64,000 nucleotides of DNA, from positions 868,001 to 932,000 of the forward strand of contig JABTUS010000001.1 of assembly GCA_015075305.1 (NCBI GenBank), given 5' to 3'. The notes under the pieces are model-generated. The model was not told the origin of the DNA. It saw only the letters and a list, made by a program, of their open reading frames with translations, and did no database searches. Every line of letters starts with the position of its first letter. Position 1 is the first letter of the stretch. This document shows positions 11,175-40,245 of this stretch, piece by piece. Both the position numbers and the translations under genes were made by a program. This stretch comes from Opitutaceae bacterium (lineage in GTDB: Bacteria > Verrucomicrobiota > Verrucomicrobiia > Opitutales > Opitutaceae).

Positions 11175-11231
11175 GGTGGATTGTGTTTAGCAGTTTGGAT
11201 TGAAGTTTGAAAAAAAATGATGGTGCGGCAG

Positions 11232-12056
11232 TCAATCAGCCGCAGGGGCGGAGGAGGCGGCTCCATGCGGCAGGGCATGGACCGTCGAATTCATGGGGAC
11301 CGGAAGCGTCAGTATTTCCGGCCCATTCTCAGTCGTGAGCACCGTGTGTTCGAAATGGGCTGAAGGCGATTTGTCCGCCGTCACCACCGTCCAGCCGTCC
11401 GCAAGCATGCGGGTCTTGAAGCCACCGAGATTCACCATCGGTTCGATTGCGAGTGTCATTCCAGGCTTTATCCGGTCACGCACCTCACGGCCGAAATTCG
11501 GGATCTGAGGTTCCTCGTGCATGCTGACACCGACACCGTGACCGACCATGTCGCGAACAACTCCGAAGCCACTGGCTTCAACATGGGTCTGGACAGCCTG
11601 TGAGATGTCCGAGATGCGATTGCCGACAACGGCCGCGGCGATGCCCAGGCGAAGCGCCTCTTCGGTGACATCAAGGAGTTTCCTCAGCTCCGGCCGGACC
11701 TTTCCGACCGGTACGGTGACGGCATTGTCGCCGATGTATCCGTGGTTGGATACAACGATGTCGATGGAAACGACATCACCATCGCTTAGGATCCGCCGCA
11801 GCGAGGGTATGCCATGGACAACCTCCTCGTTAACGGAGATGCAGGTGTGCGCCGGGTACCGGCGTGATCCCACCTGATAACCGAAGCAGGCGCTCCTGGC
11901 TCCCAAGCGGGCTATCGCGTTGCGCCCGGCCTCCTCCAGATCCTGAGTGCTGATGCCCGGCCGGACCATCGCCTTCAGTTCCTGAAGGACGGTCGCCGCA
12001 ATCCGGCACGATTCACGCATGTGAACGATCTGTTTTTCGGACTTGATCGGGATCAT
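11232..12056 (-). CDS. map: Methionine aminopeptidase, type I
   Basis: Removes the initiator methionine from nascent proteins with two metal ions. The 274-residue protein shows the substrate-site histidine in YPAHTCISVNEEVVHGIP, the metal ligands in DGDVVSIDIVVSNHGYIGDNAVT, GHGVGVSMHEEPQIPN and IEPMVN, and the last glutamate near EHTVLTTENGPEILT. The start ATG 12056 overlaps the stop of the upstream kinase-like gene as ATGA, implying coupled translation. A 25-residue Ala/Pro-rich tail follows the catalytic core. Confidence 0.95.
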   Translation of the reverse strand: MIPIKSEKQIVHMRESCRIAATVLQELKAMVRPGISTQDLEEAGRNAIARLGARSACFGYQVGSRRYPAHTCISVNEEVVHGIPSLRRILSDGDVVSIDIVVSNHGYIGDNAVTVPVGKVRPELRKLLDVTEEALRLGIAAAVVGNRISDISQAVQTHVEASGFGVVRDMVGHGVGVSMHEEPQIPNFGREVRDRIKPGMTLAIEPMVNLGGFKTRMLADGWTVVTADKSPSAHFEHTVLTTENGPEILTLPVPMNSTVHALPHGAASSAPAAD

Positions 12057-12502
12057 GCGGTGTGCGCTCGGCTGCCGGACTCGGCCAGCAGACCATGATT
12101 GCGATAGTGATCGACGAGACCGGAGGCGGATTCAAAAGCGTCGCCCGGGATGACGGCATCAAGGCATTCCTGGCGGGCCTCAAGCCATTCGTCAAAAACC
12201 AAAGCCTGGAGCAGCGTAGCCGGGAAGCCCCAGAGGACAAATCCCGCATCGGGTTTGCGCGACCAGAACCATTTCCGCATGATGGCGAGGATGGATGCGT
12301 CAGTCGCAGGGATCTGCGTCAACGCTGGCGGCGAAATCTCCAGCCTCAGCAATCCGGCCGGAGAGACGTGCTCAATATGATTCAAAGAACTGTCGTGTAA
12401 TGCTTCGCCCGCAAGGATCGATCGATGTGAACCGAGGACCACCAGCTTGGTTTTGGCCCGTAGGTTCAAACCAGCGAAGAGGTCGGAAAGTGAAGACTTC
12501 AC
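12053..12502 (-). CDS. Degenerate adenylate-kinase-like protein lacking P-loop and LID
   Basis: A 149-residue ORF in the slot between secY and map where adk normally lies. Several segments line up with adenylate kinase: NHIEHVSPAGLLRLEI (normally PHISTGDLLR), GFVLWGFPATLLQALVFDEWL (normally GFILDGFPRTxxQAExLDExL), LDAVI, and VDHYRNHGLL near the end (normally VxYYRxKGLL). The P-loop GxPGxGKGT is replaced by GSHRSILAG (residues 24-32) with no lysine, the GFPRT arginine is Ala, and the LID domain (about 60-70 residues) is missing. Phosphotransfer is therefore very unlikely. The frame is open, starts with GTG and overlaps map by 4 bp, so it may be kept as a non-catalytic protein or only for coupling. 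A functional adk must lie elsewhere. Confidence 0.7.
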   Translation of the reverse strand: MKSSLSDLFAGLNLRAKTKLVVLGSHRSILAGEALHDSSLNHIEHVSPAGLLRLEISPPALTQIPATDASILAIMRKWFWSRKPDAGFVLWGFPATLLQALVFDEWLEARQECLDAVIPGDAFESASGLVDHYRNHGLLAESGSRAHTA

Positions 12503-12516
12503 GACCGAAGTAAAGG

Positions 12517-14019
12517 CTAATTTCCGCTAAAGTGACGATAGGCCCAGATGCCCAACCCCAGCAAAAAGAGCCCCAGCATTGGGTATACGAGTTTCATGAC
12601 CGCTTCTGAGCTGAGTGCGTCGCTTGTTGCACTCGATACTCCGGCGCTGCGCGCACGGATGCGTCCCTTCTTGAGGAATCCATCGTAATGGCGTTGCAAC
12701 AGAAATGTCTCAACCTGGCGCATCGTGTCGAGAATGACACCCACGGTGATCAGCATGCCCGTTCCGCCAAAGAATATTGCGATGCGTTGCGGAACGTTGA
12801 GCTCGAAAAGGAGAACGTCCGGCATGACGGCTATGATGGTCAGAAAGATCGAGCCAGCCAGCGTCAGGCGCGTCATGATGAAGTCGAGGAACTGCGCCGT
12901 GGGTTCCCCAGGCCGGACCCCGGGGATGTAGCCGCCGTACTTTTTCAGGTCATCGGCAATTTGAATCGGCTTGAACATCACGGACACCCAGAAATAGCTG
13001 AAAAACAGGATCAGAAAGACCATGATCGCATAGTAGCTCCAGTGGCCGCGCAACAGATTGCTGGAAAAGTCGATCATCCAGCGCCAGTTCATCGCCGCAC
13101 CGAGCTGGGCGAATATCTGCTGGGGAAAAAGCAGGATCGCACTCGCAAAGATCACCGGCATGACTCCGGAATAGTTCACCTTCAACGGGAGGAAGGAACT
13201 CTGCCCTCCCATCACCTTGTTCCCCACCACCCGCTTGGCGTACTGAACCGGAATCTTCCGCTGGCCCTGCACCACCATGACGATGCCCATGGTCACCAGC
13301 ACAAACAGGGCGACCATGATGATTCCCTGCGGAAGGCCGAGACGATCGACGCCGATCGGTGCAAAAAAGAGCCGGTACGTGGCTGCAGCCGCTCCGGGAA
13401 TATCCGCCAGGATGCCTATGGTGATCAGGATTGAAACGCCATTGCCAATTCCGCGCTGCGTTATCTGCTCACCCAGCCACATCAGCAGAAGCGTGCCTGC
13501 CGTCATGAAAATGACGGAGGTGATCAGGAACGATGTCTTGCTGACTATGACGATCGATCCGTACTGGTTGATGTCGTAGCCGGGAAACAGGCGTCCGGGA
13601 TTCTCCAGTGCGAGAATCAGCAGCGTTCCCTGCACGACGCAGATGAGGACCGTCGCGTATCGCGTATACTGCGTCAGCTTCTGGCGTCCGACATCCCCCT
13701 CCTGCTGAAGCCGGCTCAGGCTCGGGACAACCGCGGTCATCAATTGAAACACGATCGCCGCACTGATGTAGGGCATGATCCCAAGCGCAAAGACGGCACC
13801 CTTCACGAGCGCGCCGCCGGTGAACATGTTGTACAGCCCGACCAGTGCGCTTGCCCCGCCGGTCGTCTGATCGGCGAAAAACGCCTGCAGCGGCTTGGGA
13901 TCAAGTCCCGGCAGCGGAATGTGCGCACCTACGCGGGCGACAAACAGGAGGGCAAGTGTGTAGAATATCCGGGAGCGGAGCTCCGGAATCTTCAGGGAGT
14001 TGGTGAACGCTGAAAACAC
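12517..14019 (-). CDS. secY: Protein translocase subunit SecY
   Basis: Pore subunit of the inner-membrane SecYEG channel. The 500-residue protein starts with GTG at 14019 (MFSAFTNSLKIPELRSRI, the usual SecY opening) and shows about ten hydrophobic helices, with ARVGAHIPLPGLD at the first loop, GIMPYISAAIVFQL in the plug region, and IPVQYAKRVVG and PGVRPGEPTAQFLD in cytoplasmic loops. It is longer than the roughly 440 typical, mainly from loop insertions and a Ser/Ala-rich stretch before the last helix. It follows rplO, from which it is separated by a strong terminator-like hairpin (14059-14084). Confidence 0.96.
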   Translation of the reverse strand: MFSAFTNSLKIPELRSRIFYTLALLFVARVGAHIPLPGLDPKPLQAFFADQTTGGASALVGLYNMFTGGALVKGAVFALGIMPYISAAIVFQLMTAVVPSLSRLQQEGDVGRQKLTQYTRYATVLICVVQGTLLILALENPGRLFPGYDINQYGSIVIVSKTSFLITSVIFMTAGTLLLMWLGEQITQRGIGNGVSILITIGILADIPGAAAATYRLFFAPIGVDRLGLPQGIIMVALFVLVTMGIVMVVQGQRKIPVQYAKRVVGNKVMGGQSSFLPLKVNYSGVMPVIFASAILLFPQQIFAQLGAAMNWRWMIDFSSNLLRGHWSYYAIMVFLILFFSYFWVSVMFKPIQIADDLKKYGGYIPGVRPGEPTAQFLDFIMTRLTLAGSIFLTIIAVMPDVLLFELNVPQRIAIFFGGTGMLITVGVILDTMRQVETFLLQRHYDGFLKKGRIRARSAGVSSATSDALSSEAVMKLVYPMLGLFLLGLGIWAYRHFSGN

Positions 14020-38723: not shown

Positions 38724-38799
38724 TGGCAGGGGCGGAGGGAATCGAACCCCCAACCAACGGTTTTGGAGACCGCTACTCTACCAATTGAGCTACACCCCT
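38724..38799 (-). tRNA. tRNA-Trp (anticodon CCA)
   Basis: A complete cloverleaf on the minus strand: acceptor AGGGGTG/CGCCCCT, D-stem GCTC/GAGT, anticodon stem GCGGT/ACCGT with loop CTCCAAA, T-stem GGGGG/CCCTC with TTCGATT loop, and an encoded CCA end. It lies between tuf and secE, its usual place. Confidence 0.97.
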
Positions 38800-40169: not shown

Positions 40170-40245
40170 TGGAGCCCAGAACCGGATTTGAACCGGCGAC
40201 CTCGTCCTTACCAAGGACGTGCTCTGCCAACTGAGCTATCTGGGC
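40170..40245 (-). tRNA. tRNA-Thr (anticodon GGT)
   Basis: Complete minus-strand cloverleaf: acceptor GCCCAGA/TCTGGGC, D-stem GCTC/GAGC, anticodon stem CGTCC/GGACG with loop TTGGTAA (anticodon GGT), T-stem GCCGG/CCGGT and an encoded CCA end. It lies 99 bp upstream of tuf, as in many bacteria that start the tuf transcript with tRNAs. Confidence 0.96.

Follow-up and report, generated by a model that had tools for sequence, protein, structure and literature searches.

A degenerate adenylate kinase gene between secY and map in Opitutaceae, possibly retained for an RNA element within its coding sequence

Between secY and map, in the place of the adenylate kinase gene (adk) of the spc operon, an Opitutaceae bacterium carries an open frame that resembles adenylate kinase (Adk) and has lost the P-loop of the enzyme, which raises the question of why such a gene has been kept. 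The DNA analyzed was a window of 64,000 nt (assembly GCA_015075305.1, contig JABTUS010000001.1, positions 868,001-932,000 of the forward strand). The pseudo-adenylate-kinase frame, here termed adkL, lies on the minus strand at window positions 12053-12502 (149 codons, with a GTG start at 12502 and a stop codon ending at 12053). It starts 14 nt 3' of the stop codon of secY, its upstream neighbor (12517-14019, minus strand), and shares an ATGA overlap with map, encoding methionine aminopeptidase (11232-12056, minus strand); the open 149-codon frame reported for the adk slot in a first-pass annotation is thus real. That annotation considered the frame a kinase remnant selected for a new, non-catalytic role such as nucleotide sensing, or simply for translational coupling; selection on the frame held up, whereas nucleotide sensing and plain translational coupling did not. 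The gap between map and rpsM (window 11175-11231) is 57 nt long and contains neither infA nor rpmJ, and two tRNA genes are present on the minus strand of the window, at 38727-38799 and 40173-40245.

adkL descends from the adk of the spc operon and is a member of the Adk superfamily by descent. The kinship is weak in the single sequence and certain once relatives are included. The window protein alone scored 18.4 bits (E 0.0025) with the Pfam ADK model (PF00406), not reaching the curated cut-off of 26.8, and had a best E of 4.9e-5 with the NCBIfam adk models; some orthologues exceed the PF00406 cut-off (e.g., 49 bits in genome G028). The slot gene of locus L036 encodes a complete Adk of 227 aa with P-loop (GPPGAGKGT), GFPR and LID, and the window protein is identical to it at 42 of 109 positions (39%). 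A profile from 18 sequences (the window protein and main-clade remnants, with L033-L036 excluded) reached solved Adks with an E of 3.1e-6. The structure model of adkL, built from an alignment that included L036, had a mean pLDDT of 77.3, dropping below 50 where the P-loop used to be (residues 28-38) and reaching 92-97 (means of ten-residue blocks) over residues 71-120, which form a confident Adk-like core; its strands and helices follow one another in the Adk order. The best match in the structural comparison was 5g40 (Z 12.0, rmsd 3.5, 128 aligned), all 50 entries shown being Adks, and the best E of a Foldseek search with the model was 3.4e-5. Structure prediction, which the first-pass annotation had proposed as a check, therefore finds an Adk core.

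The loss of P-loop, catalytic arginine and LID, claimed on first reading, is borne out for the P-loop, the LID and the arginine of GFPR. The site of the P-loop motif GxxGxGK[ST] reads GSHRSILAG in the window protein, and L036 is the only one of 59 slot proteins with a P-loop. adkL has no LID: strand 4 leads directly into the final helix, and aligning the protein with L036 shows the LID segment, arginines included, to be absent. Residues were counted over 55 remnants (L016, L034, L036 and L065 excluded). The arginine of GFPR has become alanine in 53 of these, and the arginine of the LLR motif is retained in 25, the window protein among them; we take the two to be the AMP-phosphate arginines R88 and R36, respectively, in E. 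coli numbering. L033 and L035 have lost the P-loop, yet still contain GFPRN or GFPRT. That adkL might act as a residual nucleotide sensor or kinase could be argued from the glutamine after GFPxTLL (PATLL), presumably the adenine-contacting Gln92 (E. coli numbering), which is retained in 52 of the 55 remnants; with P-loop and LID gone, alanine in place of the GFPR arginine and so patchy a retention of the LLR arginine, such an activity is scarcely credible, and the earlier suggestion of nucleotide sensing is left unsupported.

A scan of genome contigs yielded 35 loci, two of which (L005 and L031) are from one MAG, and 30 of the 57 searched genomes had a match, the window's own genome counted. 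Removal of identical proteins left the 59 distinct slot proteins, every one encoded between secY and map. The window's family is represented by 37 genomes, of which 29 have the slot gene; in one other (G035) a contig end cuts the gene off after 80 codons, three (G016, G020 and G027) have secY followed by rpsM with neither adkL nor map between them, and from four (G001, G019, G022 and G023) no secY was obtained. Other families of the order contribute 20 genomes; 17 of these had a secY locus, one of which (L117) stops at a contig end before the slot; no adk follows secY in the 16 readable loci, where map comes directly after secY in 15 and rpsM in one (L111). Two further matches (G031, contig C31, and G055) are located outside the slot. 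None of the 29 slot matches has an internal stop; stop codons and neutral decay in the relatives examined, which the first-pass annotation had named as evidence against its reading, were both looked for and neither was seen. In a SecY plus Map tree, L036 is nested in the clade of sampled family members (support 0.969) and lies outside the clade uniting L033 and L035 with the main remnants (support 0.997). L034 and L065 are likewise without a P-loop, and the tree gives little support to where they branch with respect to L036 (the clades that surround them having 0.379 and 0.735), so that the number of independent P-loop losses is uncertain, being two or three by the drawn tree.

The strongest signal in adkL, missed by the first-pass annotation, is a frozen nucleotide sequence. 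Codon analyses covered 46 of the 56 remnant genes, namely those with usable secY and map. Between neighboring pairs, adkL showed 993 synonymous changes where map and secY predicted 1623 (ratio 0.61, z -20.6); the control ratios were 0.86 for map against secY and 1.15 for secY against map, so part of the synonymous offset of adkL is gene-specific, and the deficit is nonetheless localized. The ratio of observed to expected synonymous changes fell to 0.13 in alignment codons 31-40, the SLN..EHV block (block A; GTTCTTTGAATCATATTGAGCACGTCTCTCC, 12360-12390, minus strand), and was 0.36 in codons 41-50, 0.34 and 0.45 within codons 71-90 and 0.47 in codons 1-10; elsewhere in the same gene it reached 1.00 (codons 61-70), 0.97 (101-110) and 0.95 (111-120). 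In the pair L037-L002, 10 of 59 four-fold sites differ in adkL, as against 66 of 129 in map and 141 of 262 in secY, with YN00 estimates of dS of 0.335, 1.17 and 1.52, respectively. adkL is constrained at the nucleotide level.

Several of the frozen codons are rare ones. The counts cover those slot genes, out of 59, that contain the respective motif (depending on the motif, it is absent in L018, L033-L036, L062 and L065): Ser39 is encoded by TCT in 56 of 56 (usage 0.03 of the Ser codons in secY and map of the analyzed genomes) and Ala95 by GCT in 54 of 54 (usage in the neighbors 0.08), and the codons TTG (56 of 56; neighbor usage 0.12), AAA (53 of 53; 0.27) and GAT (53 of 53; 0.39) are equally fixed. 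The RKPDAG codons are frozen in block B (TGGTCGCGCAAACCCGATGCGGG, 12243-12265, minus strand), which includes a small hairpin, CCCG-AUG-CGGG, and the PATLLQA codons in block C (CCCGGCTACGCTGCTCCAGGC, 12204-12224, minus strand). The string GTTCTTTG occurs in 58 of the 59 slot genes, L034 and L065 included despite their diverged flanking residues, and CTTTAC occurs near the adkL start in 56 of 59; in the window the latter is part of CTTTACTTCGGT (12504-12515, minus strand), located in the gap that separates secY from adkL. In L098, L100 and L101, three family members that have neither adkL nor map there, CTTTAC also directly follows the secY stop. A block A pattern, which misses slot members with internal base differences (e.g., L045-L048), gave a single match, in the slot, in 22 of the 57 genomes and none in the other 35, so by this pattern none of the 57 has a second copy of the element. 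At L120, L121, L127 and L131, loci of other orders where an Adk match separates secY from map, 0 of 5 motif strings were found. The short secY-map gaps of other families contain GTTCTTTGA in L107 and GTTCTTTG in L115, which may be chance.

Block A of L036 shares 5-6 of 7-8 codons with five main-clade members, compared with 12-19 of 44-58 in the rest of the gene, which suggests, as far as sequence comparison can, that block A is older than the loss of the kinase. In L033 and L035 the frame is retained and blocks B and C are missing, and L033-L035 shows no synonymous deficit (29 of 65 four-fold sites differing in adkL versus 47 of 123 and 117 of 231 in the neighbors).

Translational coupling alone, as the first-pass annotation had offered it, does not account for the frozen nucleotides. 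A relic or spacer that merely passes translation from secY to map would agree with the tight coupling on both sides and the lost kinase residues, and map directly follows secY in 15 of the 16 readable loci of the order's other families. Those families manage without a slot gene, however, and frozen codons and the constraint on the protein described below would both be superfluous in a spacer, as would frames free of stops in all 29 slot matches; this reading is very improbable.

The protein is also under selection. Outside the frozen blocks (codons 11-30, 61-70 and 101-138, where the synonymous ratio of observed to expected is 0.63-1.00), counting methods gave a dN/dS of 0.37 (bootstrap 0.27-0.47) over 14 close pairs, and the same pairs gave 0.14 for map and 0.08 for secY, so the adkL protein is constrained, though much freer than Map or SecY. 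For L033-L035, without blocks B and C, dN/dS was 0.18 over the whole gene and 0.13 in the outside-block codons. Together with the absence of stops from the slot matches, these values uphold the earlier claim of selection on the frame. Tyr133 and Gly137, located in the less constrained C-terminal part, are conserved in 55 of 55 remnants. It might hence be asked whether the pseudoenzyme is itself the main product, as a small protein that binds Map, SecY, a 421-aa Adk (see below) or the ribosome, in the way that guanylate-kinase domains of MAGUK proteins turned into binding modules, and the dN/dS values, including those of L033-L035, the two invariant C-terminal residues and the confidently modeled core would all fit. 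Such a protein would leave the frozen synonymous sites and rare codons unexplained, its dN/dS is far above that of map and secY, and the most conserved residues fall within the frozen blocks, which makes their conservation ambiguous; as the principal reason for keeping the gene, a protein role is rather unlikely. A role of the protein and simple coupling of translation both fail to explain the frozen nucleotides; a site in RNA and one in DNA are considered below.

One hairpin shows covariation. It lies between block A and GGAGA (12337-12364, minus strand; arms 12364-12358 and 12343-12337) and carries compensatory changes across the family. Its statistics were computed on 46 non-redundant sequences, 10 near-identical ones of 56 having been removed, and on pairs selected after inspection of the alignment: 88.8% of cells are paired (24-61% in slid versions), and the covariation score is 0.172 (at most 0.128 in slid versions), with 0 of 500 shuffles as high. 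The 17 double-changed cells were reached by 0 of 500 shuffles but by two slid versions, and the number of pair types was equaled by 47 of 500 shuffles. When substitutions were re-placed on the tree (L033 and L035 removed as being without the element, and pair 43-56 added), 8 compensatory events were counted, whereas 300 simulations of the null averaged 1.28 and never exceeded 6 (p 0.003); paired cells alone gave p 0.050 under the same null. With two constant G.U pairs set aside, there are 72 G.U cells and 13 A.C cells, which favors the sense strand, although the excess leans to that strand by construction because the structure was derived on it.

Beyond this hairpin, a wider fold is proposed. 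A long-range helix would join a 5' arm at 12335-12329 to 12260-12254 (minus strand), the former overlapping GGAGATTTCGCC (12330-12341, minus strand; GGAGATTTCGCG in most members); in the window sequence itself 2 of its 6 pairs are non-standard, and across the family it had 1 compensatory event (p 0.063), the remaining helices varying too little to give a covariation signal. Block C is the proposed partner of block A, and TGACGAATGG (12185-12194, minus strand), which is nearly invariant and so gives no covariation, is proposed to close the fold by pairing with GUUC.UUG of block A. The core of 23 members folded more stably than synonymous-codon shuffles, with a mean z of -1.53 (map -0.32, secY -0.51), z being below -2 in only 7 of the 23. 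The consensus fold of the alignment had -15.3 kcal/mol with a covariation term of just -0.33, and RNAalifold values were near equal on both strands (-94 sense, -96 antisense). L041, the source of one compensatory change, folds alone with a different partner of block A, and the minimum-energy fold of L021 does not form the hairpin; the segments of L033-L036 are no more stable than shuffles, though each has some stem after block A. No Rfam match at the gathering score was obtained for the slot and eight relatives, the best weak hit having 16.3 bits against a cut-off of 47.7.

Two other sources of nucleotide constraint were tried and rejected. For mimicry of rRNA, the element of three members was compared with the 16S of a relative (L139), as none was found in the own assembly, and with own 23S stretches (L138 and L140), and 7-49 of 60 shuffles scored as high. 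For an overlapping gene, the other forward and antisense frames of 58 slot genes stop at scattered places, none being open in all. The CCCG-AUG-CGGG hairpin contains an ATG in frame +1, which in several members is soon followed by a stop.

A DNA-level site inside the gene, a promoter or operator driving map and the alpha operon, would be in keeping with the persistence of GTTCTTTG in 58 of 59 slot genes, even amid the diverged flanks of L034 and L065, and with GTTCTTTGA in the secY-map gap of L107, a locus from another family. The constraint spans about 200 nt, however, the compensatory pairs indicate RNA, and a search by simple consensus found neither promoter nor terminator in 11900-12700, with other promoter types falling outside the sigma-70-like consensus used; a DNA site is accordingly regarded as improbable.

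The check for a complete adk elsewhere in the genome, also proposed at first reading, gave one candidate: the sole Pfam ADK match outside the slot of the own genome (at E 0.001) is a protein of 421 aa (L001:715-1980, minus strand, contig C8) with an intact P-loop (GGAPGAGKGT) and DGFPRT, which covers nearly the whole short-LID Adk model. Its approximately 140 C-terminal residues beyond the kinase part gave no separate match in Pfam or NCBIfam. ADK matches above the family cut-off occur in 55 of the 57 relatives (the exceptions being G050, 64% complete, and G005, 91% complete), and in 40 of the 57 a match lies within an open frame of 402-466 aa. Tandem double-Adk frames, with two ADK matches in 413-576 aa, occur in seven of the 57 (G012, G015, G021, G022, G029, G032 and G056; loci L068-L073 and L075). 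The long Adk may have replaced the slot enzyme; G005, which belongs to the window's genus and has the slot gene, contains no ADK match at all, so this takeover is not seen everywhere.

We consider it close to an even chance (roughly 0.47) that the pseudo-Adk gene is held by selection on an mRNA element embedded in it, with the protein selected more weakly. On this explanation, the adk of the Opitutaceae spc operon stayed in its inherited position and lost catalysis, probably once the cell could rely on another Adk (the 421-aa protein with an intact P-loop), and adkL would be kept because its mRNA holds a conserved element of about 200 nt consisting of block A, the hairpin, and blocks B and C. 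The element, on the sense strand and ahead of map, rpsM, rpsK, rpsD, rpoA and rplQ, would most likely control translation or stability of this distal part in cis, e.g., by binding a ribosomal protein or some other factor. Passage of ribosomes through adkL into map would keep the frame open, and the residual Adk-fold protein would itself be under weaker purifying selection. More tentatively, the element may have arisen inside a working adk and outlived the kinase, which was replaced elsewhere, so that the still-translated scaffold would be a new cis-regulatory RNA of Opitutaceae, acting on map and the alpha operon, within a dual-coded pseudoenzyme. A literature search, covering titles and the starts of abstracts and thus no proof of absence, found no description of an adkL gene or RNA in the secY-map slot.

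Should the mRNA element be the reason for its retention, adkL would show how a dead gene can persist in a highly conserved bacterial operon, with selection on nucleotides outlasting selection on catalysis. It would also provide a concrete candidate RNA regulator for Verrucomicrobiota, the frozen codons of which are targets for synonymous mutation. More generally, caution is advised, as conserved residues of a pseudoenzyme can be a by-product of nucleotide constraint.

Three known systems invite comparison. With the Adk of the spc operon (PF00406), adkL shares the slot, the Adk fold and the 39% identity over 109 columns seen with L036, whereas it differs from a functional Adk in its length of 149 aa, in being without P-loop, LID and GFPR arginine, and in its nucleotide-frozen blocks. 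The guanylate-kinase-like domains of MAGUK proteins have an NMP-kinase fold, lost catalysis and became binding modules. Like adkL, they are derivatives of an NMP-kinase fold that are conserved for another role after the loss of catalysis; unlike adkL, they are eukaryotic and derive from guanylate kinase, and we know of no RNA element embedded in them. Some ribosomal proteins autoregulate through sites in mRNA, among them S8 on the spc mRNA and S4 on the alpha mRNA. The candidate element resembles such sites as a structured piece of mRNA in a ribosomal protein operon, upstream of the genes that it would regulate, and differs from them in lying within a degenerate enzyme gene, with no Rfam match and no rRNA mimicry found.
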